Shown here piece after piece: positions 1,363 through 20,027 of a DNA stretch of 20,027 bases (the stretch's first letter is position 1; every line of letters begins with the position of its first letter). The notes under the pieces are model-generated. The model did not search any database, was not told the DNA's origin, and worked only from the letters and a program-made list of their open reading frames with translations. The stretch spans positions 1 to 20,027 of the IMG/VR virus record IMGVR_UViG_3300024509_000059, one strand, 5' to 3'. This DNA comes from a virus. The translations under genes and the position numbers were made by a program.

Positions 1363-1738
1363 AGTCATCCTTTACTAACAAATAAGTTGTTTTAAATTTT
1401 TCAAAAGCAATTTTGAGGCCGGGATATTCTTCGCACATTTTTTGAATTCTATTCCAGTCGGGAAAACTATTTTCCCATTCAGTAGGGAACAAACTAACAT
1501 CTATGCTTGTGATAGGACCAATCGATATCGATCCAGCACCACCGTTTGATATTGTATATGTTCCTGAAGCACCGCTACCACCAAGTGTAACCGTGCTATA
1601 TGACCCAGTGCCACCACCGAAGCCGCCTGCCCCGCCTATAATTGTCGGTTGTGTAATAGTAATAGTATCCAATGATGAAAAATCTAAAACATCAACCGAT
1701 GAGCTTGAGTAAGTTGTCTGCGCTGAAGAATTGTTCAT
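1328..1738 (-). CDS. Gly-rich small protein, 136 aa
   Basis: The start at 1738 (MNNSSAQTTYSSSS) is preferred over the upstream ATG at 1951. GAGAGA precedes it, and the longer version would lie almost wholly inside the glycosyltransferase gene. Residues about 1-30 are Ser/Thr-rich. Residues about 30-75 are very Gly-rich (IIGGAGGFGGGTGSY and similar) and suggest a repetitive beta structure such as is seen in phage fibre or adhesin tips. The last 45 residues are charged and helical and resemble the end of the 106-aa protein at 600-920. The gene overlaps the glycosyltransferase end by 47 nt. A small virion decoration or adaptor protein is possible, but the function is unknown. Confidence 0.65.
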   Translation of the reverse strand: MNNSSAQTTYSSSSVDVLDFSSLDTITITQPTIIGGAGGFGGGTGSYSTVTLGGSGASGTYTISNGGAGSISIGPITSIDVSLFPTEWENSFPDWNRIQKMCEEYPGLKIAFEKFKTTYLLVKDDYDAPPNKKIRP

Positions 1739-2786
1739 GTAAATCTCTCGCTTGTTTGTGTACAGTTGGAACAAACTTTGTATAGTTTTCCATAAACTGT
1801 ATAATCTTACTGCATAAAAATGGTCTAGATGCTTCGTAAGATTTAAAATCTTCTGTCCAAGTACTTGGATACTTAAATGTGTCGTAATACATTTCTGTGT
1901 AACTAAGTCTGTCCGGAACCATAGGAATAGCGTCAACCACCGCACCTTCATAGCAACTAATGCCTAAAGTTTCTTGTAAGTTTGCGCTAAACACTATCTT
2001 TGCTTCGCCTAACAAGTTATGATATTCATTTTTTGTTAGCTGTTGATCCTGACACACTACAAATTCATACTGCGGTAAGTGTGTAGCTAAGTCTCGAAAA
2101 ATCTCAACTTGCTTCTCGGGTGCGATGCGATGCGGGAAAAGAATAAGGTTACGCTTAGGCATATTCTTATACATTTTTAATGTATCTTCCATATACTCCA
2201 TTGGCCAGCCTGTGCGTACATATTTGCTAGATTCTAACATATCTGCTTTATCTTCCTCTTCCCAAGGATTTTCAACCATTCCGTCATTGAGTAAATTATG
2301 ATGGAACATGTCGATATGAAAGTTAGTAGCAAAATAGTTATGATCAAACGCTGCAAAGAAACTTTTCTCTGCATGTCTAACCCAAGGCTTATTACCAACG
2401 AGACGACCCAAGAAGTCTTGCGGGTCGTATGATCCAGCATGCCATAAACCATGTGTGGTTACTGGGATATTCAGTAACTCACTCATGTATTTTAAGTTTA
2501 TGATACCAGGATGCCAAGCATCAGTAAAGATAAAGTGATCACCGGAACAAACGGTTCCGTTACAAAATAAACGCCCCATTTGCTCAACTTGGCTAGACTT
2601 ATAGATATTAGTGCCGCCAAAATTAAGAAAGGCGCCAGGAGTAGTGGCACTAGGAATGTCCGTAGGACCAGAGATAATTTGAACATTATGACCTGCCTTT
2701 CGTAAAAGATGTGGTACATGGGTCTTCCATTGACCCGTGTACCTTGTTTCTACAGCTTCTAAATCAATTAGAAAAACGTTCGCCAT
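1692..2786 (-). CDS. GT-B fold glycosyltransferase, 364 aa
   Basis: The protein starts MANVFLIDLEAVETRYTGQW, a beta-strand plus loop as in the N-terminal Rossmann domain of GT-B enzymes. The second domain shows FPHRIAPEKQVEIF at about 217-230, the R/K donor-phosphate region of GT4-like enzymes. It then has E-TLGISCY-E (E272 to E280), the EX7E motif that contacts the nucleotide-sugar donor. The reaction would be transfer of a sugar from a nucleotide-sugar donor to an unknown acceptor: DNA base, surface glycan or protein. The start at 2786 is chosen over 2939 because AAGGAAAA lies before it and the extra 51 residues would overlap the previous gene widely and look unstructured. With the Ugd-like gene at 8883-9656 it may form a sugar pathway. 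Confidence 0.8.
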   Translation of the reverse strand: MANVFLIDLEAVETRYTGQWKTHVPHLLRKAGHNVQIISGPTDIPSATTPGAFLNFGGTNIYKSSQVEQMGRLFCNGTVCSGDHFIFTDAWHPGIINLKYMSELLNIPVTTHGLWHAGSYDPQDFLGRLVGNKPWVRHAEKSFFAAFDHNYFATNFHIDMFHHNLLNDGMVENPWEEEDKADMLESSKYVRTGWPMEYMEDTLKMYKNMPKRNLILFPHRIAPEKQVEIFRDLATHLPQYEFVVCQDQQLTKNEYHNLLGEAKIVFSANLQETLGISCYEGAVVDAIPMVPDRLSYTEMYYDTFKYPSTWTEDFKSYEASRPFLCSKIIQFMENYTKFVPTVHKQARDLHEQFFSADNLLKLIG

Positions 2787-3036
2787 TGTGACGTTTTCCT
2801 TGATACGGCTTGCGTTCGCCATTCCATTGTTTTTTCTCACCGTTCCATGGCTTACGTGGTCGTGTGCTACGCTCGTATTGTTGCCATACTCTAGATTGGC
2901 GATTATATAAATCTGCTTCGTTATATGGAAGCATTTCAAATCGACAGAAGTCGAGAAGTTTATCTAAGTCATCAAAAATTTTGACAACATCGGGACGATT
3001 TTCAAAGTAACTGTAATCGTTGTAGTTCTTAGCCAT
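2764..3036 (-). CDS. Hypothetical protein with basic W-N-G-E repeat tail, 90 aa
   Basis: Residues 1-55 (MAKNYNDYSYFENRPDVVKIF onward) look like a compact helical domain with several acidic and aromatic residues. The C-terminal third is strongly basic and repeats NGE followed by K/R residues three times (WNGEKK, WNGERK, HNGER). Such a tail could bind nucleic acid. I do not recognise the family. AGAGG lies 6 nt before the ATG. A 12-nt gap separates it from the QueD-like gene, and its last 23 nt overlap the start of the glycosyltransferase gene, so that gene's ribosome-binding site lies within this coding sequence. Confidence 0.7.
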   Translation of the reverse strand: MAKNYNDYSYFENRPDVVKIFDDLDKLLDFCRFEMLPYNEADLYNRQSRVWQQYERSTRPRKPWNGEKKQWNGERKPYQGKRHNGERFSN

Positions 3037-3048
3037 TATAGCCTCTTA

Positions 3049-3444
3049 TTAGTATTTTATGAATGAACCATTTTCTCCGTCTTCGGAGACCTCAATCCAA
3101 ACCTCGCGGCCTGGATACTTTTGCTCAATGATGTCGTACAAATCGTCAGACATCATTTCACAACTCTTATAATCAAGGCTTAAAACGGCACCTTGACCAT
3201 TATACAGCGACTCGAGCCATCGTTTGAATTGGATGAATTCGATGTCCCTGTCATTGTGTTGCACACTGATCCACACCCTGAAATGAAAGATGTGGCGATG
3301 AGGATAACCCAAAAATGATACGTCATATTCGTCTCCTGTTGCTAACGCAGGATCTGTTAGCGCCGCAGGATATTTATGAATACCTTCCTTGCGGAAAGTT
3401 ACCCAGATCATTTTGTTAGGTCGAATGTCTTGTTTAATTTTCAT
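3049..3444 (-). CDS. QueD / 6-pyruvoyl-tetrahydropterin synthase-like protein lacking catalytic residues, 131 aa
   Basis: The order of motifs fits the tunnelling (T) fold of QueD/PTPS: an early His (GIHKYPAA, H23), then HRHIFHFRVWI with H49 and H51, then DIEFIQFKRWLESLY. These correspond to the three zinc His residues and the D-F-x-x-LK strand-helix. The tail IEVSEDGENG matches the strand with the substrate-binding Glu (E121). The Cys that normally precedes the HxH pair is replaced (SFLGYPHRH), and the catalytic LDHH-type His is absent (LDYKSCE). In the family QueD makes carboxytetrahydropterin for 7-deazaguanine synthesis. This copy may bind a pterin or purine without that chemistry. The start at 3444 forms ATGA with the preceding stop. 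Confidence 0.6.
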   Translation of the reverse strand: MKIKQDIRPNKMIWVTFRKEGIHKYPAALTDPALATGDEYDVSFLGYPHRHIFHFRVWISVQHNDRDIEFIQFKRWLESLYNGQGAVLSLDYKSCEMMSDDLYDIIEQKYPGREVWIEVSEDGENGSFIKY

Positions 3445-3983
3445 TTGATTTCTTTGTCTTGCGTATATTGATCCCAATATGTAAATTTATCTTTACTCAT
3501 TAGGCTGTGTAAGTGATGTGTCCATACACCGGGATTTGTAGCACCCCATGTACGGTCATCTAGTTTAAGTGTTGCATTATAGTTTAGTTGATTAATGTAG
3601 GGCAACTTTACACTAATCATAGGAATAAATTTAGGATATTCATTATAACAAGATTCCAGTACACCTTCGATGTGTTCTACACCAAAGTCTAATGCTACCC
3701 AGTAACCTTCCTTTAGACAACCTACAATGACTTCGTCCCAGCGTTTATATTCTTCGTGTGAGATGGATTTAGGATTAAAACTTTGACTGGTGCCAAAGTA
3801 AATTTGTTTAATACGTTTGCTTTCATCTAGATATGCCTGTGTGTCTCCAGCAATACGTAGTATTTCTTCTAGAGGAGGTGTACCAACTACAAATAGTGTG
3901 TACATTCCATAAGCAACAGTATGCTCTACTTCGTAACCTGTAAAGTATGTAACACCTTGTCGTTCTTCAGTGTTTAATCCCAT
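3441..3983 (-). CDS. Hypothetical protein, 180 aa
   Basis: Unrecognised soluble protein starting MGLNTEERQGVTYFTGYEVE. The segment EVEHTVAYGMYTLFVVG looks like a beta-strand pair. A central portion (IKQIYFGTSQSFNP), a later one (GYWVALDFGVEHIEGVL) and FIPMISVKLPYI suggest an alternating alpha/beta, TIM-barrel-like or Rossmann-like order, which I cannot confirm. It has His pairs (THHLHS) near the C-terminus and few Cys. AGAGG lies about 9 nt before the start. The gene overlaps the dehydrogenase by 10 nt and is ATGA-coupled to the QueD-like gene, so it probably shares a task with that protein, possibly in modified-guanine metabolism. Confidence 0.7.
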   Translation of the reverse strand: MGLNTEERQGVTYFTGYEVEHTVAYGMYTLFVVGTPPLEEILRIAGDTQAYLDESKRIKQIYFGTSQSFNPKSISHEEYKRWDEVIVGCLKEGYWVALDFGVEHIEGVLESCYNEYPKFIPMISVKLPYINQLNYNATLKLDDRTWGATNPGVWTHHLHSLMSKDKFTYWDQYTQDKEIK

Positions 3984-4855
3984 TTGATATAACCTCTACT
4001 GTAGCCATTTGGACGATCCACACCATCCGCAAATGCCTGTTGCCACTCTGTGTTTCTATTATAACCTTTTGTCCAAAAATTATCAACCTCTAGTTTACCG
4101 TTTTCTATCATCCAAACTGCATCTTTCATACATTGATGAAAATTTGAATTGCGTGGACTTGGTTTGATTGTAGTGCAAGCCTTCCAAAGTTGTTGCTGGG
4201 CTTCTTCTTTACTTACGGCTTTGCCAACAGCATCAACAATCGACGCATTATTATTTAGGTTTATATCAATGCCTAGTTCATATTTTCCAGACAAGTCAAT
4301 AACTACATCGTAACTTTCACTAGTACTAACTAATAGTATATCTCCCCATAAGTCGATATTACTAGAACCTACTACATCTACATTTTCGCAATGTTTAAAT
4401 TTAGTTAAAGTATGATAAGCTACCCACGCTAAAAATCCACTTCCAATTATAAGTATCTTGTCTTGCTTAGAACAATTTGCAACATCTACTGCGTTGATTC
4501 CGCAAGCAACAGGTTCGATAATATAGCGAGGATGTGCTTCTGGTATTTGTACATACTCATCTTTACGAACATTATAATAGTCTGCGTATGCTGGCTCGCC
4601 TCTAGTGGCTACAAAATTGCCCTTTTCTACATTGGTGACTTCAGACCCGACGTCTACAACTTGTCCTAATCCTTCGTGTCCTTGCATACTAAGAGGCAAT
4701 GGTCCAAAGTTACCTTGCATCATATCAATATCGCTACGACATACACCAGTCATAATAGCACGGACGCAGATATCTGTTGGTCCTAATGAAGGAAGTTCAT
4801 ATGTTACTTCTTCAAAACGACCTTGACCCAATGTTTGTAAGCAACGAACTATCAT
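3974..4855 (-). CDS. Zinc-dependent medium-chain dehydrogenase (alcohol/sorbitol dehydrogenase-like), 293 aa
   Basis: The N-terminal catalytic domain has GVCRSDID (C39, catalytic zinc ligand) and the GHE signature GHEGLGQVVDVGSEV (H60, E61). The EPVACGINAV segment carries the Glu/Pro of sorbitol-dehydrogenase-type enzymes. A shortened Rossmann domain begins ILIIGSGFLAW, with the last Gly of the usual GxGxxG replaced. At 293 aa it is shorter than the 340-380 aa typical of the family. The four-Cys structural-zinc lobe is absent. It would oxidise an alcohol or sugar hydroxyl with NAD(P), on an unknown substrate. The start at 4855 (MIVRC) is chosen because it forms ATGA with the stop of the Gfo/Idh gene. 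The two enzymes occur fused in some bacterial bi-domain oxidoreductases, so a shared pathway is likely. Confidence 0.8.
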   Translation of the reverse strand: MIVRCLQTLGQGRFEEVTYELPSLGPTDICVRAIMTGVCRSDIDMMQGNFGPLPLSMQGHEGLGQVVDVGSEVTNVEKGNFVATRGEPAYADYYNVRKDEYVQIPEAHPRYIIEPVACGINAVDVANCSKQDKILIIGSGFLAWVAYHTLTKFKHCENVDVVGSSNIDLWGDILLVSTSESYDVVIDLSGKYELGIDINLNNNASIVDAVGKAVSKEEAQQQLWKACTTIKPSPRNSNFHQCMKDAVWMIENGKLEVDNFWTKGYNRNTEWQQAFADGVDRPNGYSRGYIKWD

Positions 4856-5730
4856 ATATTTTCTATTCTTTCGTGAATCCACAAATCAATCTCTAATTGT
4901 TCATTCCAGAAATTATCGTTATCTACGTTTCCTATCGCATCTTTAATCATTAATTCGTATGCATATTCTGGACATAGTCCTAACTCTATAATATCAACTG
5001 ATTTATCTTGATTTATAAACTCAATGTTTATTTTTTCTTCTGTTATTCTACGCCAATCTGCTTCAAGATTCCATTTACTAGCAAAAGAAAAATGACACTT
5101 GTCATCTACATCATAAACGCCGTCAACATTTACAGTTCCGTAATTAGTATTTGCAATATCTTCTAAACTCCATCGAGTCATGGAACTATAGCCATTTAGC
5201 ATATCTGTTCGCCAATTAGGATTTAATGCAACATACAGGCTTAGTAAGTGTGGCATTAAATCTCGGCTCACTCCTCCATATGCTAATGTTTTATTAGTAA
5301 ACCAACTACCTGGATTTGGAACTCGATCTTTGTTAATCCAGTTTATTTTAATCGATTTTGCAGACTGTGCTTTTGTTTGTAGTTCAGATATGTTATCTCG
5401 CCACATGTTATTTTTAACCATGATAAAACGAGTATTTGGAAAATTGTTAATCAGGCTCTGCCACGATGTTTTATCTTTAACACCAGGTTTTTCAACAAAA
5501 ATAATTTTACTAAACGGGGCAAGTTTAGTTGCAATATCCAAGTGAGTACAATTTGGAGTACAAATGTTTACAGTATCAAATCTACCATAAGAAAAAATAG
5601 CCGATTCAATAGTTGGGAAGTCGGCACCTTTTGATATATCCCCGTCAACCGTTATAACTTCGTGGTTGAGTTTTAATAAAATGGATTTGTACAATTGGCC
5701 AAAACCCATTCCAACAACTAAACTTCTCAT
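4852..5730 (-). CDS. Gfo/Idh/MocA-family oxidoreductase, 292 aa
   Basis: The N-terminus MRSLVVGMGFGQLY is a dinucleotide-binding Rossmann motif. The strand VNICTPNCTH and the IIFVEKPG motif (E80, K81, P82) are signatures of the Gfo/Idh/MocA family. The second domain contains YGGVSRDLMPHLLSLY, where D157 and H161 fit the conserved D-x3-H of the catalytic region. These enzymes oxidise or reduce sugar or cyclitol carbons with NAD(P), often on nucleotide-linked sugars. At 292 aa the protein is a little shorter than the usual 330-370. It is ATGA-coupled on both sides, to the BPSL0761-like gene before and the zinc dehydrogenase after. The substrate is unknown. Confidence 0.8.
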   Translation of the reverse strand: MRSLVVGMGFGQLYKSILLKLNHEVITVDGDISKGADFPTIESAIFSYGRFDTVNICTPNCTHLDIATKLAPFSKIIFVEKPGVKDKTSWQSLINNFPNTRFIMVKNNMWRDNISELQTKAQSAKSIKINWINKDRVPNPGSWFTNKTLAYGGVSRDLMPHLLSLYVALNPNWRTDMLNGYSSMTRWSLEDIANTNYGTVNVDGVYDVDDKCHFSFASKWNLEADWRRITEEKINIEFINQDKSVDIIELGLCPEYAYELMIKDAIGNVDNDNFWNEQLEIDLWIHERIENI

Positions 5731-5981
5731 ATTTTTTCCTTTTTTGATTGTTCATATTGAGCCATTAGTCTTGTAACTGCTTCCATACGTTCTTGAAACA
5801 CATCGGGCGCACCTTCTGCGGCACGAGTCATATCCCAGTCACTAGGGTAGTGTCGTAGCATAGAATGAGCATGTTCTCTAATAATTTTAGGAACTCTTGG
5901 TGTATGCTGTGGATTGCACAAGTCTAACAAAAATCTGCGAGTCTGTATAACGGCACGATAACGTTCGTCTGGTAGTGTCAT
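5727..5981 (-). CDS. BPSL0761-like small protein, 84 aa
   Basis: The protein reads MTLPDERYRAVIQTRRFLLDL, then TPRVPKIIREHAHSMLRHYPSDWDM. This order (P-x-E-R-x-x-A-V/L, FL-x-x-L, VP, R-x-A, LRHYPS) is what I recall of the BPSL0761 family of small proteobacterial proteins of unknown function. It is helical and basic to neutral, without membrane segments or Cys clusters. It sits between the TGT-like gene and the Gfo/Idh gene with ATGA overlaps on both sides, so it is translated with them. It may be a small partner of the base-exchange enzyme or a regulator captured from a bacterial host. Confidence 0.6.
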   Translation of the reverse strand: MTLPDERYRAVIQTRRFLLDLCNPQHTPRVPKIIREHAHSMLRHYPSDWDMTRAAEGAPDVFQERMEAVTRLMAQYEQSKKEKI

Positions 5982-7528
5982 TCTTTTACCTGTAATTCTA
6001 GCTGGTCTAATTTGGATTCTTCCTCGTCGGTGAATTCACCGTCGTCATGTGATTGTACACTATCTTCTTCTACTTCGTCAAACAATTCGAAGTATTTGGT
6101 ACTAGCATTAACCGTTTTCTTACCAACAGCACCCCTAGTTCCAGGTATTGCTTGCCAAAATCTGTCAAATTCGTCAATAATGGCTTCTGCATCGCCTCTG
6201 TTAGAAGTTGCAAACACAGCTTCAACTACATCTTTGAAGTAGGTTCTTTGGAAACGTTCTTCAACTAACATGTTTGGACATAAGCCTGCATCGTATTGAC
6301 GATTAGCTTCTTGTACGCTATTGATATGTTGCCATACATTATGACCCATCATAATAGCATAACTGAAACTATCCCACGATGTTTTACCTTCTTTGCCTAT
6401 CTTATTTAGGTCGCCAGGTTTGTATATACAAATATCCTTAATAGGAACACCGTCCATAACAGGGCTAGTTGTAAATGACTGGAAAAAGTTATCCTGAATT
6501 ACTGCGTCTTGGAAGAGCCTTGTGTCTGTTGCATATTTTTTGTCATCAATAGACGGCAACATTCTGTAGAGCCATTTTTTCCTGTCTTCGATTTCTGTTT
6601 GGACATAGATTTGTCCGTTTGCAGTTGCGAGGAACGGTGAGGCGCAATCAAAAGAGATGGTAAAGTTTTCATTATGATATTTCCTTACAGCACGTTGAAT
6701 GTCTGTGAGCAATAGTGCCCACTCTAATTTTGATGTACCTAAGAAATGCATCCAGTCTTGCTGGCCTTTTTCTAATAGTCCATCAAATCTCAGTGCCACT
6801 AGTCGTTTTAAGACTAAGTGTACATCGCACATATTCTGTCCGCCCATAGCCCAACCGTTAAATGCACGGTCACCATAGACTTTAGGATCGCAATATTTTT
6901 TCATTCTATCATACCAATCGTCTGCATCAGTATGATTTTCACCTTGGAGAACATTTAAGAATTTACAATTACCATTGCGATTGTTTACAAACCAATCATT
7001 GTTAATATAAGTACCTTGAACTGCTTCTGCGTATGTTGTAATGCCTGTAGCTTTTTGACCAGCAGGACTACGAGCAACCCATGCCGGGATATCGAGACAC
7101 ATACCATAGTCCATAAGTGCATCCATCCACTTGAGAACTTGTTCACGTTTCTTTTGTGCTTTAGGACAGTTAGGATTTTTCCAGTCCCCTTCCCACACAC
7201 CTTTACCAATTTGGAAGCCGCCTGAATCACCTAGTACCCAACTAGTATTACGATTGCGATTACGGAACATATCCTCGCCGTCGTCTTGTTTGTTTAGGTC
7301 TAGATTTGCATGTCCTGCGCTATACAAACAATGATCGTAGTAAAATAATCCTTTGTCAGGATCTAGATAATTTAAACTTTCAACACCATTTTTCCATACA
7401 GCAGGTATACGTGCTGGATCAACATAATTGCCATAACGCTGTTTGCCGATAAAAGTAGCATAGAAGCCGCTTGTTGCTGGCAAAAAGTATGCATAGTCGT
7501 TTTGTGCCGCCGTTAAATTTTTATTCAT
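5978..7528 (-). CDS. TGT/DpdA-like base-exchange enzyme, 516 aa
   Basis: Motifs occur in the order of the tRNA-guanine transglycosylase TIM barrel. GDSGGFQIG (D101) matches the general-acid DSGGFQ loop, and MCLDIPAW (D146) the substrate-recognition Asp. NVLQGE (about 193-197) matches the VQGG strand, NGWAMGGQ (about 224-231) the YAIGG loop, and HFLGTSK (about 261-267) the YLMGVG region. SFDCASPF (D294) matches the nucleophile Asp strand. The family swaps a guanine for a 7-deazaguanine in RNA, or in DNA for DpdA proteins. The CxCxxC...H zinc site of tRNA enzymes is not visible, as is usual for DpdA-type members. At 516 aa it is longer than bacterial TGT (about 370-390), with a unique acidic C-terminus. 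The start at 7528 is preferred to 7549, which has no ribosome-binding site. The substrate (DNA or RNA) is not known. Confidence 0.8.
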   Translation of the reverse strand: MNKNLTAAQNDYAYFLPATSGFYATFIGKQRYGNYVDPARIPAVWKNGVESLNYLDPDKGLFYYDHCLYSAGHANLDLNKQDDGEDMFRNRNRNTSWVLGDSGGFQIGKGVWEGDWKNPNCPKAQKKREQVLKWMDALMDYGMCLDIPAWVARSPAGQKATGITTYAEAVQGTYINNDWFVNNRNGNCKFLNVLQGENHTDADDWYDRMKKYCDPKVYGDRAFNGWAMGGQNMCDVHLVLKRLVALRFDGLLEKGQQDWMHFLGTSKLEWALLLTDIQRAVRKYHNENFTISFDCASPFLATANGQIYVQTEIEDRKKWLYRMLPSIDDKKYATDTRLFQDAVIQDNFFQSFTTSPVMDGVPIKDICIYKPGDLNKIGKEGKTSWDSFSYAIMMGHNVWQHINSVQEANRQYDAGLCPNMLVEERFQRTYFKDVVEAVFATSNRGDAEAIIDEFDRFWQAIPGTRGAVGKKTVNASTKYFELFDEVEEDSVQSHDDGEFTDEEESKLDQLELQVKE

Positions 7529-7754
7529 CTCGCTGTATCCAACATTCATAATACGGATCGTATGCCCAACCTGTTGGAGGATTAAGAGGATCGTATTTTT
7601 CTGGATGAGTGAACGGAGTCATTGGTGGCCTGTATAGTTTATTATAGTTGGCTGCAATTTCTAATCGTATCTTCTCATCCTTAATTTCGTGAGCCATTAT
7701 TCCTTCGGGAATAGTTTCAAATTCTGTCCATCTAAATAATTTAGGCAGTTTCAT
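7521..7754 (-). CDS. Hypothetical Tyr/Pro-rich protein, 77 aa
   Basis: Small protein starting MKLPKLFRWTEFETIPEGIM. Its second half is rich in Tyr and Pro (YDPLNPPTGWAYDPYYECW). No known motif is visible and the family is not recognised. The start at 7754 is chosen over the upstream ATG at 7784 because it forms ATGA with the stop of the membrane-protein gene. The ribosome-binding site is weak, in line with translational coupling. Its stop overlaps the start of the TGT-like gene by 8 nt, so it may be a co-translated accessory of that enzyme. Confidence 0.6.
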   Translation of the reverse strand: MKLPKLFRWTEFETIPEGIMAHEIKDEKIRLEIAANYNKLYRPPMTPFTHPEKYDPLNPPTGWAYDPYYECWIQRDE

Positions 7755-8857: not shown

Positions 8858-8886
8858 ATTATATTTAGGTTTTTTGTAAAAGTCAA
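8858..8886 (-). promoter_or_regulatory. Sigma70-type promoter of the clamp gene
   Basis: On the minus strand TTGACT (8886-8881) is followed by a 17-nt spacer and TATAAT (8863-8858). That is five of six and six of six matches to the bacterial housekeeping consensus with ideal spacing. The -35 box overlaps the TGA of the upstream dehydrogenase gene. A transcript would start near 8851, giving a leader of about 14 nt that includes GGAG. It would allow clamp and downstream accessory genes to be made early by unmodified host polymerase. Confidence 0.7.
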
Positions 8887-9656
8887 GGCTCATTTCTTAC
8901 TTTTTTGTTATATTCGACTGCTGATTCAACCAAACTAATTGGCGCACCTATAGTGTTAGCCCATCGAATAAATGCTTGTGTGTCTTTAGGAAAACAATGT
9001 CCTCCCCAGCCACGGTATCCATCTGGACCAGGTACTAGTGTATGCCCTGAACCAATTCTATTATCTTGTGATATAATATGTCTAACTGTTTCAAAAGACA
9101 TGCCTGTCTTTTCGCATAAGTCATAGACTTGATTGAAGAAGCTGGCTTTTAATGCTAAAAAACTGTTTACACTATACTTGACTAAACAAGCCTCTTCTTC
9201 GGTACAGTTTAAAATCATTTTACAGTTTGGCAATGTATTTTGAAATAGATCCTGCCAGAAACATTCTGGATCCTCTCCACCTATTACAACATATTTTTGA
9301 TTTAAGAAATCTTTGTCAGCTGTATTGGCTCTTAGGAATTCTGGACTGTAACAAATACTATGATCTGGATATATTTCTTTGAAGCCTTCTACAATACCAG
9401 GTGTCACGGTACTCTTAATAAGAATAGGCATAAACACCGGGACATAATCTAATACTTCGGCTATTATGCTGGCATCGCAAATTCCATATTCTGTTGTAGG
9501 AGTAGGAACACATACAATGATGCCATCTGCATCGTGGTGATCAATAATTTTAAAATCTGTATACTGCGGATCGTGTATAACAATTTCGTGCTGATCTTTT
9601 AATGCATTAGCAACTGCTTTACCAACAAATCCGTAACCAGCAATTATAAATTTCAT
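8883..9656 (-). CDS. Short UDP-glucose/nucleotide-sugar dehydrogenase-like protein, 257 aa
   Basis: The protein starts MKFIIAGYGFVGKAVA (GxGFVG, NAD-binding Rossmann). It then shows IVCVPTPT, KSTVTPG (T83), SPEFLR (E106), KYSVNSFLALKASFFN (K160, N164) and GWGGHCFPKDTQAF with catalytic Cys221 and Lys225. All catalytic residues of UDP-glucose 6-dehydrogenase are therefore present. That enzyme oxidises UDP-glucose to UDP-glucuronate with two NAD+. Full-length enzymes are about 390-450 aa. This one stops at the end of the central helical region and lacks the C-terminal UDP-binding Rossmann domain, so the substrate handle may differ. It lies between polymerase and clamp, 1 nt from the polymerase stop. 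Shared donors with the glycosyltransferase at 1692-2786 are plausible. Confidence 0.85.
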   Translation of the reverse strand: MKFIIAGYGFVGKAVANALKDQHEIVIHDPQYTDFKIIDHHDADGIIVCVPTPTTEYGICDASIIAEVLDYVPVFMPILIKSTVTPGIVEGFKEIYPDHSICYSPEFLRANTADKDFLNQKYVVIGGEDPECFWQDLFQNTLPNCKMILNCTEEEACLVKYSVNSFLALKASFFNQVYDLCEKTGMSFETVRHIISQDNRIGSGHTLVPGPDGYRGWGGHCFPKDTQAFIRWANTIGAPISLVESAVEYNKKVRNEP

Positions 9657-12775: not shown

Positions 12776-15745
12776 TTATCTTCGAACACCTTGACCTGGA
12801 TATGTTGGTGTTGCAGCTGATTTTTTTGCTAGATCTTCAGCACTTGCACTAACACCGGCTCTACCAAAAACTCTAGCATTTGAATCACCACCTGCTGTAG
12901 CCGCTGGTTGAGGTTGAACGCCGCCTTCTTTAAATCCTTCTGGCGCCTTGGCACCAGCTGCAACAGCCGCCTTAATTGTTTCAGCTGTTTCTGGATCAGT
13001 TGGCCAACCACCATATAATTGAGCAAGAAGTTTTTCAAGATCTAAAAGTTGACGTTTGCGTTCTTCTTCTTTTGGATCTACTTGCGGTTGAACTGGCGCT
13101 GGCCCAGGTGCTGGTCCTGGTCCTGGTCCTGGTCCTGGTTGCGGTTCGACTGGTTTGTCCGTTGTCACAATTTTGTAAATTCCATATGCTGCCAACAAGG
13201 CTAGTAGAGTTAAGAATTTATTGTTCTTAATAAATCTTACAAAACGTCCGCCTAATTTTCCAACTTGATAAAGTAATCCTTCTCCCTTAGCAGCATCTGC
13301 TGTTAATTTAGAAACAGCCTCGTCTCCTACCTTAGGAAGAACTTTTTCTGCATCGGCTACACCTTTCTCTACATTAGCTACACCTTTTTCTGCATTAGCT
13401 ACACCTTTTTCTGCATTAGCTACACCCTTCTCTGTATTGGCTACACCTTTCTCTGCAGCAGATGTACCTTTTTGTCCTGCACGTTCAATATCGCTAGCCA
13501 TTTTTCTTGCAGCACGAAGTTCACCGGGACTAGCAACTTTGGATGCCAAAGGTTCGTTAGCAAGTTTAGCTAGTCGTTGTCCTCTTGGACCGCTTGCTAT
13601 CATTTGATCAATGACCCAACTTGCAAATTTCATGCCGCCGCCAATACGATCCTCTTCAAGATCATCATCTTCATATAAGCCGGATAGTTTCAGTATGCGA
13701 GCTAGGTCTGACGATTCAGCTGTTCTAGTTGTTCCTTGAACAAGACCGCCATCACCACCACCTGCCATTACAGTTGGAGCGGCTTGTCCGCCACTCATAT
13801 TTGGACCACCGGTTGTATCTGCCGTAGCATTTGATGCATTTGCTCCAGCACCTGCATCTGCAACTTCTTCTCCGTCTTTAATTCCTACAGCATCCATTAA
13901 TGCTGCTAACTGCTCTTGAGTGATGTTAGGAGGTGTTATTCCTAATTTCTTCATAGCATCTTGTACTACTTTTGGATCTAAATCTGCCATGGCATTTGTA
14001 GCCGTTGTTGGACCAGAAGGAGCTGCATCATTTTGACGTTGTAGTCTAGCTGTTTCTGCATTACTTTGATCTGGTTCTGACGCTGAAGGAGCTGCATCAT
14101 TTTGACGTTGTAGTCTAGCTGTTTCTGCATTACTTTGATCTGGTGCAGAAGGTATTTTTCCGTCAGCAGTTAATTTTCCGTCTTTCTTAGCACGAGCAAT
14201 AGCATCTTGAGTTTCTTTGCCTAGTTTTCCATCTGCACCAAAGCGAGGTAATATGTTTTTTGCACTACCGTATTGTGCAACTAAGTAATCTTGAATTTTC
14301 TTAACTTCTTCGTCGTATTTTAATTTGTTATTAGCTGGTTGTGGATTCGGTGGTTGCGGATTATTTGACGGAACGTTATCTGGATGAGGATCTACTCCGG
14401 CTGCTTTATCTATTTGATCAACAGCTTTTTGAGTACCAACTACAGCACCTGTACCTGTAACAAACTGGCCGACTTTACCCATACCAAGTTTTTGAGCACC
14501 TTTCACACCTACTTTAAACATACTTGTAATAGCGCCAGGGCCTACAAGGCCTAATACGTCACCTATAGTCATGTTTCCAGCTGGATTGTTTGGATCCATT
14601 TTCCAGCCAACTGCATTTGCCGCTGAACGTAAATTCAAAGCATTTGGATCTAAGTTATAAGCTCTATCAGCCGCTTGTTGTTTTTCGCGTTCTTTTTTGT
14701 ATGTGGTATTTGGATCAAATGCGCTACTAGCTGCTGCCGCTGCTTTGTCCGCTAGATCAAAAGTTGCCATATTAGCCCAGTCTTTAACTGTTTTACCTAA
14801 ATGGTCACTCCAATCTAGTTTAGCATGTCCTTTCTTTAACAATGCGAGATTATGTTTTACTTGTTCAGGACTTAGATAACCTTTCCAGTCTGGTTCAAAA
14901 AGTTTAGCACCTGCCTTTTGACCTTGAGGTGTTAATGACAATTCCATTAACATTTCTGAATCATTATCTAATGATTCATTTGCTGGTGTACCAGCACCTC
15001 CACTACGTTCTCCTCCAGCTGGTGCAGCCGGTGCAGTTGATGTTGTTGCCGCAGGTTTTATTGCAGCAATAACTTCTTTAATACGTGCAATTAACGCATC
15101 TCGTTGTTGATTGTATGCTCTAAATTGTGCAACAAGGTCTGCTGAATCAGGATCTGATTTTGCAAAAGGAGTAAGTTTTTGTACTAGCCCTTTTAACTCT
15201 GCATGTTCTTCTGGTGTAATGTATTCTAGTAACGAAACTTTGTAGCCAAAACTACCTAATAATGATTCTGCAATGCTTTCTTTAGCTGGTGCAGCTGATG
15301 GTGCAGTAATAGCTTTTTTCATTAATTCTTCTGCACGATCAACCATTTTGTCTCGTTCTTGAGCTGACTGGTTGTCTCCAATAGCTGTTTTTCTATCTTG
15401 GCCTCTAGCACCCATCCAGCTAGATGTTTTTGCATTTAAAGGAAGTAAACCCCAACCTTTTAATCTATTAACAGTAGCTTCGTCTGCACCTAAGAATGAT
15501 GCATAGCTTCCGTCTGCCTTTACAAGCTCACCGCTAATAGGATCAAATAAAGTTTGTAGACCATTATCAGCAGCCAGTTTTGCCAATGCTTTTCCTCTAG
15601 CATCGTCGTCTGTAGCATATTGTTTTGCAACAGCTTCAACATCGCTATAGCGAATGCGAACCTTTTCCATTAGTTCTTCTGCTTCTGCTAGTAGTTTAGT
15701 TTGTTCAATAGCATCTAACTTGTTAATAAGATCTCTTAAATCCAT
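12776..15745 (-). CDS. Large putative virion protein with PG-binding-like segment, heptad repeats and a TM helix, 989 aa
   Basis: Low-complexity Ala/Pro/Lys-rich protein starting MDLRDLINKLDAIEQ. Visible parts: a helical N-terminus (1-240); a Gly/Ala-rich linker with PANPQP-type runs; a segment at about 475-527 (IQDYLVAQYG ... FGADGKLGKETQDAI) resembling a peptidoglycan-binding_1 domain; and a duplicated 23-residue block near 535-577. A short motif, LARILKLSGL, follows at about 680. Next come six EKGVAN heptads at about 762-802, one membrane helix (FLTLLALLAAYGIYKIV, about 842-858) and a GPGPGPGPAPGPAP linker. I infer a virion or injected protein from position and from similar proteins in marine T4-like phages, but I cannot name it. 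AAGGA lies 8 nt before the ATG. Confidence 0.8.
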   Translation of the reverse strand: MDLRDLINKLDAIEQTKLLAEAEELMEKVRIRYSDVEAVAKQYATDDDARGKALAKLAADNGLQTLFDPISGELVKADGSYASFLGADEATVNRLKGWGLLPLNAKTSSWMGARGQDRKTAIGDNQSAQERDKMVDRAEELMKKAITAPSAAPAKESIAESLLGSFGYKVSLLEYITPEEHAELKGLVQKLTPFAKSDPDSADLVAQFRAYNQQRDALIARIKEVIAAIKPAATTSTAPAAPAGGERSGGAGTPANESLDNDSEMLMELSLTPQGQKAGAKLFEPDWKGYLSPEQVKHNLALLKKGHAKLDWSDHLGKTVKDWANMATFDLADKAAAAASSAFDPNTTYKKEREKQQAADRAYNLDPNALNLRSAANAVGWKMDPNNPAGNMTIGDVLGLVGPGAITSMFKVGVKGAQKLGMGKVGQFVTGTGAVVGTQKAVDQIDKAAGVDPHPDNVPSNNPQPPNPQPANNKLKYDEEVKKIQDYLVAQYGSAKNILPRFGADGKLGKETQDAIARAKKDGKLTADGKIPSAPDQSNAETARLQRQNDAAPSASEPDQSNAETARLQRQNDAAPSGPTTATNAMADLDPKVVQDAMKKLGITPPNITQEQLAALMDAVGIKDGEEVADAGAGANASNATADTTGGPNMSGGQAAPTVMAGGGDGGLVQGTTRTAESSDLARILKLSGLYEDDDLEEDRIGGGMKFASWVIDQMIASGPRGQRLAKLANEPLASKVASPGELRAARKMASDIERAGQKGTSAAEKGVANTEKGVANAEKGVANAEKGVANVEKGVADAEKVLPKVGDEAVSKLTADAAKGEGLLYQVGKLGGRFVRFIKNNKFLTLLALLAAYGIYKIVTTDKPVEPQPGPGPGPGPAPGPAPVQPQVDPKEEERKRQLLDLEKLLAQLYGGWPTDPETAETIKAAVAAGAKAPEGFKEGGVQPQPAATAGGDSNARVFGRAGVSASAEDLAKKSAATPTYPGQGVRR
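13340..13458. repeat. Six 21-bp in-frame repeats encoding EKGVA[N/D] heptads
   Basis: Within the 989-aa gene, 21-bp units encode EKGVAN followed by a variable residue (T, A, A, V), then a diverged EKGVADA and a final EKVLPK. The units differ mostly at silent or single positions. The heptad with hydrophobic V and A spacing could form an extended coiled coil leading to the membrane helix. Confidence 0.85.
14016..14144. repeat. Perfect 60-bp direct repeat, 69-bp period
   Basis: Bases 14016-14075 and 14085-14144 are identical, separated by 9 nt, inside the 989-aa gene. The in-frame period of 69 bp gives two copies of a 23-residue block that ends in RLQRQNDAAPS. Complete identity at silent sites points to a recent tandem duplication or gene conversion. 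Confidence 0.9.
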
Positions 15746-15746
15746 T

Positions 15747-16343
15747 TTACTGTTCCTTGTTTATCTCGTCTGTTTTTCCAAATGGGAATACTTGAATCCA
15801 TTGTGTGCCTTGTTTTTGTACCCATTTCTTTGGATCAAATTTGCTTCGTATAATGCCATGAATTTTTAATGCTTTTTCTTGACTATCTCGAAATCCTTCT
15901 GCATGAGCACTACGTTCTTCGTGATTAGAAATCATTCGTTGTTTTAAACGACCATCTCTGTAGATATACATTAAATTAGCTTCGTCGTCGATATCTCGGC
16001 GACCGCGCCCAAAACCACTTATACTACTGTCGTAATCACGTTGATATGCATCATAGCTACCATAACGTCGATTTTCTAAAACACGTTGACTAATTTTTTG
16101 AGCATACTGCTGAATTAGTTGTTTACGTTCAGTTTGCTGTTGTAATGTTTCTTCTTGTACTTGTTCAAAGTATTTTCTAACAACATTTTCTTTTTTAATA
16201 GCGGGCTTTTGATATTGTTGCATAGCCATTTGTACCGGTAACGCAACTTTGTGAGGATTAGATCCTTCAGTCAGTACACTAGAATCTTCTACAGGTTTTG
16301 TAGAAACGCTATCAATAGCCTGTAGAATTTTCTTCATGTCCAT
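15747..16343 (-). CDS. Putative virion protein, 198 aa
   Basis: Basic, Gln/Arg-rich soluble protein starting MDMKKILQAIDSVSTKPVED. The middle part is a long charged helix (EQVQEETLQQQTERKQLIQQ, then more). It is followed by a Gly/Arg/Asp segment (SISGFGRGRRDIDDEANLMYIYRDG) and a C-terminal DPKKWVQKQGTQWIQVFPFGKT. No known domain is recognised. It lies 3 nt from the stop of the 575-aa gene and 1 nt from the 989-aa gene, so it belongs to the same unit. The start could also be the second Met (16337), because no clear ribosome-binding site separates them. Confidence 0.75.
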   Translation of the reverse strand: MDMKKILQAIDSVSTKPVEDSSVLTEGSNPHKVALPVQMAMQQYQKPAIKKENVVRKYFEQVQEETLQQQTERKQLIQQYAQKISQRVLENRRYGSYDAYQRDYDSSISGFGRGRRDIDDEANLMYIYRDGRLKQRMISNHEERSAHAEGFRDSQEKALKIHGIIRSKFDPKKWVQKQGTQWIQVFPFGKTDEINKEQ

Positions 16344-16347
16344 ACTA

Positions 16348-18075
16348 TTAACCTACTAGTCTTTGTTTAAATTGCATCAAACGTTCAAACTCTGCATTTT
16401 CTCTTAACTGTGCAGCTGTTGTAGCAACTTTTTGTTGGAAATCATCTTCTTTACGAACGTCAGCTTGTGTTGCTGATCTTAATCCACCAGCGTTTGATGG
16501 CTTTGGATCGGGAGTAGGTTGTCCCATAACTGGTTGGTTTGGTCCTTTTGGATTTCTTGCTTGATTATAACCAGATGTAGCTGCATTTGCTACATCTTTA
16601 ACACCTTGAACTACATTCTTACCAACTTGTTGAGCACCTTGTACTACACCTTGTACAGTATTAACTGCATTGCCAACTTCTTGACCTAATTGATTAGCGG
16701 CACCTTGTACAAATTCTCCAGGATGTTTAGCTGCTGATACAACGCCATTAACAAAATTCATAGCCGCACCTTCTTCTGCTTCAACTTCTCCTGCTGCTGG
16801 CATGTCTTTTGGTTCTGTACCTGCTGTTGGTGCAGCTGGAGCACCTGCGCCAGGTTGTGTTGTAGGTTGAGGATTTGCCGGAATCTTATTTGCTAAATCT
16901 TTAAAATAATTTTCTACAGCCTGTCCACCTTGTTGTACAGCCTGTGCAAGTCCTTGGGGATCATTTTGTTTTGCGTAGTCAAGTAAGGCTTGCAAACCAG
17001 CTTGAGCTTGTGCTTGATCTTCTTCGTTTAATGGTGCTTCAGGAAGTAGTGCCTGTAGACTTTCTTTTAAACTCTTTGCTTTGTTTTTCCACATAGCGGC
17101 TGCAGCAATCTTCTCACCTTTTTCACCACCGCCTGCTTTCTTTGCAACTTTTTCAAAATTCTTTCCTGGCTTACCAATATCTTTTCCTGCCTTAGCAGCC
17201 TTTACAGTTGATGACTTTTCTTTCTTAGTCATACCTGCACTTGGTTTAGCATCTTCTTTCATACTGCATTCTTTCATGCCATGAACTGGACATGATTTAC
17301 CTTTGGCTGTATGGTTACATTTTTCTTCAGATGCTTCGTCTACTTTCTTTTCTTTCTTAGCTTCTTTAGCAGCCTTTTTCATTGGCTCTTTTTCATCGCC
17401 GTCTTTGTCTAAGTCTGCAAAGTCAGGTTTTGCACCTTCCTTAACTGTCTTTTCAAACTTCTCTCCACCTTTCATGCCCCATACACGAGTTCCTTTTTCT
17501 GGTTTAGGAAGTTTAATTTCTTTAGCTTTGTCTGCTTTCTTTTCAGCAGCACTTTTGCCTTTAGCTAGACTTGCAACTTCGCCGTGTTCTTCATCGGAGT
17601 ATTTTCTTTCATCTTTATGAACAACACCTTTACGTTTGCCATCATCGCCATATGTAGCTGTAGCAGTACCGTGTTGAGTTTTGGTAACTTCTTTACGGTC
17701 TTCTTTTACTTTTTCAGCTTGAAGTTTCTTTAGCTCAGCAACCTTAGCCTTAGCTTCCATTAACTTGTTTTTAAGTTCAAGTTTTTGGCTTTCATTATAC
17801 ATTTCGTTGTTGTCTAATCTAGCACCGTAATCGCTAAATTCCATTTCATATTCTAAGTAATGGAATACGCTGGCAATGTAGTCAGCAGCTTTAGTGATTT
17901 TAGCCTGAACCCATCCTTCAAGTTGGGCATCATCGTCTAGTTTCTTAAACAGTTTTAGACTGTAGTTGGCTAGTTTGTATAGGTCCGCTTTGGCCATTGC
18001 GCCTTCGCGATCTGATTCTCCATGGGCACCGATTGGTGCTTGGCTCATATTATCTGGTTGCATGTCGTCGTGCAT
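16348..18075 (-). CDS. Putative virion structural protein, Lys/Ala-rich, with Cys/His and DxDxDG motifs, 575 aa
   Basis: The first 120 residues form a recognisable helical block (REGAMAKADLYKLANYSLKLF ... LEGWVQAKITKAADYIASV). I recall it from virion proteins of T4-like cyanophages. A Lys-rich linker follows, with a DLDKDGDEKE loop at 221-230 (EF-hand/dockerin-like) and a compact CNHTAKGKSCPVHGMKEC cluster (C253, H255, C262, H265, C270). The C-terminal half is Ala/Gln/Gly-rich with amphipathic repeats (VQGVVQGAQQVGKNVVQGV). The last residues, EFERLMQFKQRLVG, are helical. GGAG lies 8 nt before the ATG. It could be a head-interior or scaffold-like protein; the exact role is unknown. Confidence 0.8.
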   Translation of the reverse strand: MHDDMQPDNMSQAPIGAHGESDREGAMAKADLYKLANYSLKLFKKLDDDAQLEGWVQAKITKAADYIASVFHYLEYEMEFSDYGARLDNNEMYNESQKLELKNKLMEAKAKVAELKKLQAEKVKEDRKEVTKTQHGTATATYGDDGKRKGVVHKDERKYSDEEHGEVASLAKGKSAAEKKADKAKEIKLPKPEKGTRVWGMKGGEKFEKTVKEGAKPDFADLDKDGDEKEPMKKAAKEAKKEKKVDEASEEKCNHTAKGKSCPVHGMKECSMKEDAKPSAGMTKKEKSSTVKAAKAGKDIGKPGKNFEKVAKKAGGGEKGEKIAAAAMWKNKAKSLKESLQALLPEAPLNEEDQAQAQAGLQALLDYAKQNDPQGLAQAVQQGGQAVENYFKDLANKIPANPQPTTQPGAGAPAAPTAGTEPKDMPAAGEVEAEEGAAMNFVNGVVSAAKHPGEFVQGAANQLGQEVGNAVNTVQGVVQGAQQVGKNVVQGVKDVANAATSGYNQARNPKGPNQPVMGQPTPDPKPSNAGGLRSATQADVRKEDDFQQKVATTAAQLRENAEFERLMQFKQRLVG

Positions 18076-18099
18076 AATGAAAACTCCGTTATCGTATAT

Positions 18100-18369
18100 T
18101 TAGCGTCTTTTAATAGTCTTACCACCAAAAATGCTAGTGCCTTTTAGGTCTAATGCATTTACAGCAGTACCATCTTTGCGTTTTTTCTGCTTAATTTTAG
18201 GCTGTTTAGGTGCTTTTGTTCCTGATATTCCGCCCCACATATTGCCTATGTAGCTTTTCTTACCTCTAGATTTTCCAGGACTAATGTGAGGTGCATCAAC
18301 TGTTGCAATGTTGCCCGCACTAGTTGCTCCTGCTGTAGCTGTTTCTTGTAGAATTTCAATTACTTTCAT
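18100..18369 (-). CDS. Small basic protein, 89 aa
   Basis: The protein starts MKVIEILQETATAGATSAGN, an N-terminal peptide with an ETATAG-type run that I have seen in hypothetical structural-module proteins of T4-like phages. The remainder is strongly basic (GKSRGKKSYIG, KQPKIKQKKRKDG and a KTIKRR end) with many Gly. It has no membrane segment. It could be a DNA-binding internal head peptide, which is inference from charge and position. The ATG overlaps the preceding stop as ATGA. Confidence 0.7.
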   Translation of the reverse strand: MKVIEILQETATAGATSAGNIATVDAPHISPGKSRGKKSYIGNMWGGISGTKAPKQPKIKQKKRKDGTAVNALDLKGTSIFGGKTIKRR

Positions 18370-18599
18370 GATTTTGTTCTTATTCCTGGTCCAACAGGTT
18401 TTTCACCAGTTAGTTTAGGTAAACTAAACCATAGTTGAAACCATTCAGGTGTTCCTGGTTGTATATTGTGTTTTTTCATTAGCTCGCCTTTTTCATTGCC
18501 AGTCAAACTGATATTGCTACCGTCTTCGATAGAATACTCTACTAAACCTGGAAAGGGTCTAATACCGGCTAACTTTTTAATTTGAGCTAGTTCATCCAT
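18366..18599 (-). CDS. Hypothetical protein with N-terminal LAQIKKLAGI motif, 77 aa
   Basis: The protein begins MDELAQIKKLAGIRPFPGLV. The LAxIKKLAGI peptide resembles LARILKLSGL inside the 989-aa protein. The rest (DGSNISLTGNEKGELMKKHN, then PGTPEWFQLWFSLPKL) is a small mixed domain, and the C-terminus is basic. The family is not recognised. The ATG lies 1 nt after the stop of the Dps-like gene with a weak ribosome-binding site, and its stop is ATGA-coupled to the 89-aa gene. Confidence 0.7.
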   Translation of the reverse strand: MDELAQIKKLAGIRPFPGLVEYSIEDGSNISLTGNEKGELMKKHNIQPGTPEWFQLWFSLPKLTGEKPVGPGIRTKS

Positions 18600-18600
18600 A

Positions 18601-19038
18601 TTATTTTAGTGTGCTTCTTAACATCCAGCTGTGCTTACGGTGTGCATCTTGACGATCTGCAAAGAAGTTACTCAGTCCATATTCACCTGCTTGATCCGCT
18701 AGTTGATAAACGGCTTTAAACACGCCTGCCATTGTCTCTGAATCTTTGTATAGTTCTGCTAACATATGACCAGGATCAGGTACACCATTTTCGTCATCTA
18801 CTTGTGTTAGCATACTAAATTTACTAAAACTTGCTGGAGCATAAGTTCCTGACTTGCGTAGATTTTCTGCAAAGTCATCGATAATTCCGCCTACTTCTTC
18901 GTAAATCTTTCCAAACAGTTCATGGTATTGAGGAAAGTTTGATCCTTCTACGTTCCAATGAAAGTTTTGTGCCTTTAGATAAAAGGCGTATTCACTAGCG
19001 AATGCTGTTTTTAATGCTAGGTGAAATTTCTCGTCCAT
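18601..19038 (-). CDS. Dps-like ferritin (DNA protection / ferroxidase), 145 aa
   Basis: Residues 20-62 read as the Dps ferroxidase region: NFHWNVEG (H27), FPQYHELF (H39), IIDDFAENL (D54, E58). The spacing 12-15-4 equals that of classical Dps (H31, H43, D58, E62 in Listeria numbering), so all ligands at the inter-subunit iron site are kept. Dps forms dodecamers that oxidise Fe2+ with peroxide and store iron, and some also coat DNA. The length is close to the family norm. The N-terminus is short and carries no basic DNA-binding tail. GGAG lies 6 nt before the ATG, inside the end of the nucleotidyltransferase gene. A place among virion genes suggests protection during late infection or packaging. 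Confidence 0.88.
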   Translation of the reverse strand: MDEKFHLALKTAFASEYAFYLKAQNFHWNVEGSNFPQYHELFGKIYEEVGGIIDDFAENLRKSGTYAPASFSKFSMLTQVDDENGVPDPGHMLAELYKDSETMAGVFKAVYQLADQAGEYGLSNFFADRQDAHRKHSWMLRSTLK

Positions 19039-19039
19039 A

Positions 19040-20026
19040 TTATACTCCGTATTTGTTCTTTTTAGGTTTTGCTACAGGGCTAGTTTTATTAACACCTGGA
19101 ATTTCTTCACTGCGCTTTCCACTCCAGTTTTCTATGTTACCTGCACCAACTGCCTTAGCTGCTGCTTTAACCATTTCTAATTCTTCTTCTGTATATGTGG
19201 ATAACAGAGGATCTCCACCGATCCAGTTATCTGCTTCTGCTCGTGTAGGATAATCAGGTGCACCTGCTAATGCAACTCCCATACGCCAATTTAAATATGC
19301 ACTACCTGTACTTTGATTTAAGTTAGGCATTGTCATAGCATTTTTCATTGCAGCCTTTTGTGTAGGATCTATCTTTTTTGTAATACCAGATGCTCTTAAT
19401 CCTAGAGCATTTGTAGTTCCTTCTGCAACTGCTGCTTTAGCATTCTTAGCAACTTTTTCTGGATACTTTTGTAAGTAGTGAGCAACAATATCAAATAAAG
19501 GATATGCCTTTTCGCCAATAGTAATCATGCTAGATGCTGGTATTCCAGCATCTTTATAAAAAGCAGCTTTGTTTCCTTCACGAACATACTTTCTTAAATC
19601 GGTTGCACGGGCTAAACGTTCTGTTTTCTTCCAGTCAATTTGTGCAAACTTATAACCGCCGTGCTTTTGATTCATCATGCCGTTGTATTTTTGTAAACCA
19701 CTTGCAAGCCACTCTTCATCGGTGTAGACATTTAAGTGAACATTTTCACCATATTTTTCGTAGATGTTTGTTGCCATAACAAACAAATCTTGTTCTGGAA
19801 TTACGTGTTTAGCTACGCCTGGCCATACAGCGGCCATGCATTGTAGTTTAATTTCATATGGTAGGGGATCTTTAGGACCTTCTGTATTTTCGTTAGTACC
19901 GACAAACCAAATAGGATTCTTACTAGCAGCTTTCCAAACTTCTCTATGTCCTTTGTGCGGAGGATTCCAACGACCGTAGCAAATGCCAATGGTTTTTAAA
20001 CCACCATCAAATTCTTCCCCACCTTC
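19040..20026 (-). CDS. Nucleotidyltransferase-domain protein (HxGH, NMNAT-like), 5' end outside window
   Basis: The frame is open to the window edge; 328 residues are visible and the start is not. CYGRWNPPHKGHREVW near the visible beginning contains the HxGH signature of cytidylyltransferase/NMNAT enzymes. WFVGTNENTEGPKDPLPYEIK follows, and RATDLRKYVREG corresponds to the second (I/S-S/A-T-x-x-R) motif. These enzymes join a nucleoside monophosphate from NTP to a phosphorylated substrate. About 110 residues of different, Ala-rich sequence follow the domain (MKNAMTMPNLNQSTGSAYL onward), so the enzyme may be fused to a structural part. An internal Met at 19837 is not the start, because the HxGH lies upstream of it. 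The substrate is unknown. Confidence 0.8.
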   Translation of the reverse strand, partial: EGGEEFDGGLKTIGICYGRWNPPHKGHREVWKAASKNPIWFVGTNENTEGPKDPLPYEIKLQCMAAVWPGVAKHVIPEQDLFVMATNIYEKYGENVHLNVYTDEEWLASGLQKYNGMMNQKHGGYKFAQIDWKKTERLARATDLRKYVREGNKAAFYKDAGIPASSMITIGEKAYPLFDIVAHYLQKYPEKVAKNAKAAVAEGTTNALGLRASGITKKIDPTQKAAMKNAMTMPNLNQSTGSAYLNWRMGVALAGAPDYPTRAEADNWIGGDPLLSTYTEEELEMVKAAAKAVGAGNIENWSGKRSEEIPGVNKTSPVAKPKKNKYGV

Positions 20027-20027
20027 G

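Follow-up and report, generated by a model that had tools for sequence, protein, structure and literature searches.

Why does a large phage carry a gene for Dps, and when in the infection and in which compartment would its product act? These questions are raised by a 145-aa ORF with an ATG start on the minus strand (18601-19038) of a 20,027-nt stretch of viral DNA, IMG/VR record IMGVR_UViG_3300024509_000059 (hereafter the window). Phage-encoded Dps proteins have usually been noted in single genomes as auxiliary genes. We find that the gene at this locus belongs to a virus-specific clade and lies in an operon preceded by a late promoter box of the T4 type, and we use this context to weigh where its product is likely to function.

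Identification of a Dps-type ferritin

The product of the ORF is matched by the Pfam Ferritin profile (PF00210, E=6e-21, above the gathering cut-off) and by PHROG 3636, described as 'DNA binding protein' (1.3e-29), and in a PDB search it matched 42 sequences, of which the named ones are mostly Dps and the best is the Dps 8ff9 (1e-24). Against the NCBIfam Dps equivalogs the best score is 47.5 bits, below the curated cut-off of 300. An AlphaFold2 model (pLDDT 92.9) is a four-helix ferritin-like bundle of the Dps type; in a VIA structural alignment of this model the top match is Dps 2c41 (Z 21.9 at 1.4 A), and nearly all the rows listed are Dps proteins, including 1o9r, the title of which refers to DNA protection by a Dps that does not bind it.

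Four residues, H27 (codon 18958-18960), H39 (18922-18924), D54 (18877-18879) and E58 (18865-18867; all on the minus strand), can be read directly from the sequence as the Dps ferroxidase residues with their exact 12-15-4 spacing, as an earlier sequence-only reading of this DNA had pointed out. None of the four, nor W28 or W138, varies across 67 distinct viral and 57 bacterial sequences. The same reading had called the ligand set complete, which holds for four of five positions. The fifth, occupied in Listeria Dps by a carboxylate at H39+4, is the non-acidic G43 in the window protein. At this position the viral copies have G (27), E (26), Q (8), D (5) or A (1) and the bacterial copies mostly E (35) or M (19); because it varies in both sets, we do not treat an acidic residue there as a defining feature of Dps. 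The N-terminal DNA-binding tail had been reported as missing, and the basic Lys/Arg tail, at either terminus, that marks the E. coli DNA-binding type of Dps is indeed absent: helix A of the model begins at residue 3, and the viral relatives inspected have no basic or tag-like N-terminal extension.

The lack of a basic tail is shared with several bacterial Dps proteins (Listeria innocua 1qgh, Agrobacterium 1o9r and P. aeruginosa PA0962 8ff9), which also have the same fold (Z ~20-21 at 1.6-1.9 A), the H/H/D/E spacing and both tryptophans. The viral protein differs from such tail-less forms in being no more than 43% identical to the bacterial relatives fetched, in the glycine at the fifth ligand position, and in its membership of a viral clade and a late phage operon. 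By sequence and fold there is nothing unusual about the window protein, which adds one more Dps to an established family.

A viral clade under purifying selection

Searching IMG/VR with the window Dps gave at least 597 viral matches, from which 80 relatives were fetched. In a tree that includes the 57 best bacterial matches, a branch with 100/98 support has 67 viral Dps proteins on one side and the 57 bacterial ones on the other. In the collection of cultured phages the best-ranked match is the Dps of cyanophage S-SRM01, whose host is Synechococcus KCZYC6, at 26% identity, and no match exceeds 33%. Values of omega from nine pairs range from 0.016 to 0.063, indicating strong purifying selection, and the gene is therefore not a chance ORF. 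Viral Dps of this type is thus widespread, virus-specific and strongly constrained. It might be argued that the gene is a mere passenger of host origin that does nothing for the phage, as bacterial Dps genes are common and those fetched are about 35-43% identical to the window protein. However, the single viral clade, the fixed place in a conserved operon, the omega values and the number of viral matches already make such an origin without function unlikely, and we give it very little credence.

Gene neighborhood and phage affiliation

The phage is a member of the T4 superfamily, with a DNA polymerase that shares 46-49% identity with its counterparts in Sinorhizobium phage Phosso and Agrobacterium phage Atu_ph07, and its 161-kb relatives encode homologs of gp23, gp21, gp20 and the sigma factor gp55 (E 5e-10 for the last). 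The conserved gene order runs from a ClpA-like gene through genes for a 207-aa protein, a 123-aa protein, a DUF6267 protein and an HxGH nucleotidyltransferase to Dps, and continues with a 77-aa protein, a basic protein, a 575-aa protein, a 198-aa protein, a peptidoglycan-binding protein, a DsbA-like protein and the DNA polymerase.

The upstream partner of Dps, cut by the edge of the window, is the HxGH-motif nucleotidyltransferase-like gene (19040-20027, minus strand; GRWNPPHKGH; CTP_transf_like at 0.009, below the cut-off), whose stop lies 1 nt from the Dps ATG and which is complete on the overlapping contig L001. Its sole match among cultured phages is in Methylophilales phage Melnitz, with no Dps annotated around the matching gene. 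Downstream of Dps, likewise on the minus strand, there follow the 77-aa gene (18366-18599; N-terminus MDELAQIKKLAGI), whose family is present in 61 of 81 sequences; the gene for the basic protein, of 89 aa (18100-18369), whose start MKVIEILQE is, by published motif rules (PMC9026906), like a T4 capsid-targeting sequence with an L-X-E cleavage motif; the charged, low-complexity 575-aa protein (16348-18075), kept in the block in 57 sequences and with no relative among the phages of the cultured collection; the conserved 198-aa block member (15747-16343), starting MDMKKILQ; and, at the end of the block, a 989-aa protein (12776-15745) with a weak match to a peptidoglycan-binding domain (PG_binding_1 at 1.8e-4, just below the cut-off).

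Several other features of these genomes were observed. The DUF6267 protein of the Dps operon (L001:2696-3907) has a KxDG motif (KWDGNP in relatives) and may catalyze nucleotidyl transfer; the late operon would then encode two putative nucleotide enzymes, this one and the HxGH protein. In relatives, genes for a ClpA/ClpB-like ATPase, DnaJ and peptide deformylase, all lacking late boxes, are clustered upstream of the Dps operon (L003:4458-6728 and upstream genes). Elsewhere in the window, a 523-aa protein (5978-7549, minus strand) without a Pfam or PHROG match contains the sequence GDSGGFQIGKG, which is reminiscent of tRNA-guanine transglycosylase-like DNA modification enzymes, and ADH-like, GFO_IDH_MocA-like and nucleotide-sugar dehydrogenase-like genes and a possible glycosyltransferase (1692-5730 and 8883-9656, minus strand) adjoin the polymerase and clamp genes.

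The Dps gene had been assigned to a virion module. In the linear contig coordinates of two 161-kb relatives, G001 and G002, the block lies ~93 kb and ~81 kb from gp23, and therefore it is not the canonical virion module; what survives of the assignment is the late operon and the neighbors with capsid-targeting-like N-termini, both taken up below.

Late promoter box and operon structure

Among 7-mers located 18-45 nt before ORFs in G001 and G002, ATAAATA, which forms the T4 late promoter core, shows the strongest enrichment (26 observed against 0.48 expected). In 51 of 51 loci a NATAAATA late box is found in the intergenic region before the 123-aa gene, nearly always in the form GATAAATA. This gene heads a compact operon in which it is followed by the DUF6267, nucleotidyltransferase and Dps genes, Dps being the fourth. 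The window ends before the operon head, and the box was read on L001, one of the 51 loci, which shares 3275 nt with the window at 99.97% identity and on which the genes from the operon head to Dps are spaced by 0-2 nt or overlap. Terminator-like sites in the region of the operon are at chance level, and a sigma-70 promoter scan found fewer sites than expected by chance. Genes of early type have no late box before them (clamp 0/20, ClpA 0/32, deformylase 0/26).

Boxes 14-15 nt before starts were left out of this evidence, and a CATAAATA box located ~35 nt ahead of the nucleotidyltransferase gene was discarded, as it is part of the coding sequence of the preceding gene, where it specifies a conserved HKYG. 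The gene for the 575-aa protein has a late box of its own ~25-35 nt upstream in 20 of 48 relatives. In the window, CTAAATA, a late-box variant that is also enriched before ORFs in the relatives, occurs at 18097-18103 (minus strand), 28 nt before this gene and overlapping the preceding stop codon.

A similar arrangement is seen in a second viral Dps lineage, typified by S-SRM01 (loci L269-L348), which comprises about 290 viral matches and is 26% identical to the window Dps. Here the late box lies 28-34 nt upstream of Dps itself in 36 of 36 distinct upstream regions; many of these regions follow what looks like the 3' end of a tRNA gene. The S-SRM01 protein resembles the window Dps in being phage-encoded, in its 12-15-4 ligand spacing and in its late box, but it occupies a separate branch of the tree and has its own promoter beside tRNA genes, elsewhere in the genome. 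Taken together, the upstream boxes in 51/51 and 36/36 cases, the gp55-like sigma factor and the box-free early genes make late expression of both viral Dps lineages well supported on sequence grounds, in keeping with the expectation of late rather than early expression in the sequence-only reading. This does not extend to the whole family, since about a quarter of the fetched relatives have Dps in other gene contexts and an L073-like clade has no late box within several kb of Dps.

A phage Dps-like gene has also been described in Lactobacillus plantarum myophages, where the DNA-binding ferritin-like protein was proposed to store iron as a defense against H2O2 (PMC6669764). Unlike the window Dps, it is reported to lie near replication and repair genes, in phages of a different host group, and the passage describing it cites no late-promoter evidence.

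Possible capsid-targeting signals in the Dps block

Late timing by itself cannot separate a cytosolic Dps from a packaged one, because many products of T4 late genes end up in virions. The T4 internal proteins enter the prohead by means of a 10-residue N-terminal peptide that is cut after L/I-X-E (PMC9026906, PMC3012670), and IPI-III and Alt resemble the products of the Dps block in being late and in having similar short N-terminal peptides (PMC3012670, PMC9026906). A motif built on T4 head-protein cleavage sites, of the form E-hydrophobic-hydrophobic-x-E, recovers 10 of 263 ORFs in T4 itself, nine of which belong to the head or virion or duplicate such a gene. Among the fetched loci the motif is present in 43 of 214 proteins of the main sequence cluster of the block, versus about 4 in the remaining ~540. 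These N-termini are suggestive of capsid targeting, and we consider it likely that the block is a source of internal head proteins and that Dps is a co-expressed gene without the tag. A start very like an internal-protein targeting peptide, MKTFKEFIKE, was also seen in T4 gp61.1 (NC_000866 18966-19130, minus strand), a protein of unknown function.

Near its start the 77-aa neighbor of Dps has the sequence LxxLKKLAGI, which is similar to IRRLAGLKF at the end of the gp22-like scaffold (G001 17659-18756), as is LARILKLSGL inside the 989-aa protein. The three may possibly reflect a shared capsid or scaffold contact, and the likeness in the 77-aa protein is a lead rather than evidence.

On this basis Dps could be an internal head protein, entering the prohead together with the scaffold core, possibly by way of a tagged partner such as the 77-aa neighbor, where it would protect the DNA of the particle or load it with iron. 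The late operon, the targeting-like starts that neighbors flanking Dps on either side have in some of the loci and the scaffold-like motif of the 77-aa protein are consistent with this. However, Dps itself differs from IPI-III and Alt in lacking the signals: neither a capsid-targeting peptide nor the L/I-X-E motif of the prohead protease occurs in any of 54 distinct viral Dps proteins, and Dps ranks 31-33 when N-termini are scored. A position profile trained on the N-termini of the block failed on T4, where IPI-III and Alt rank 45-155 with the register off by one residue and where the motif from head-protein cleavage sites performed better, and a looser motif is only modestly enriched in the block when counted per genome (p=0.002 and 0.02). 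Furthermore, a 9-nm Dps dodecamer could not pass the phage portal, and an injected role is unlikely because the assembled cage could not leave by that route. A search of open-licence papers found no virion-borne phage Dps. The earlier suggestion that the protein travels in the head with iron is not supported. Packaging of Dps inside the head is possible, but we regard its being an internal head protein as rather unlikely, and the wider proposition that in large T4-like phages a scaffold-targeted partner brings a viral Dps cage into the head as more doubtful still. Were Dps packaged, the virion would carry its own iron and peroxide scavenger beside the DNA, in the form of an enzyme cage inside a phage head.

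Proposed role

The reading that we favor, and think probably correct, is that a phage of the T4 superfamily makes a virus-specific, tail-less Dps late in infection as a cytosolic ferroxidase cage that protects progeny DNA. A gp55-type sigma factor with RNA polymerase would start at the GATAAATA box and transcribe the compact operon, from the 123-aa gene through DUF6267, nucleotidyltransferase and Dps to further genes of the block. In the host cytoplasm Dps would then form the 12-mer cage usual for its family, and the H/H/D/E site is predicted to oxidize Fe2+, preferably with H2O2, and to store the ferric mineral. The Fenton reagents that build up in the failing infected cell would in this way be removed, sparing concatemeric and just-packaged progeny DNA from nicking. 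Such protection would be chemical, without coating of the DNA. A point against this proposal is that G43 stands where many Dps proteins have the fifth carboxylate.

The Dps family stores iron, and with its conserved ferroxidase site the cage might instead serve the iron economy of the infection, hoarding host iron late to starve competitors or to supply progeny structures such as iron sites at the tail tip. This role would be hard to tell from protection by sequence, but beside Dps we recognized no gene for iron uptake, a siderophore or an iron-binding tail protein, and we consider it improbable.

What deserves attention in these observations is that the gene stands in a late operon, that its viral copies form a clade, and that a second lineage repeats the pattern. 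The presence of two separate viral Dps lineages behind T4-type late boxes argues for a common need late in lysis, at a time when the progeny DNA would be exposed to iron and peroxide.
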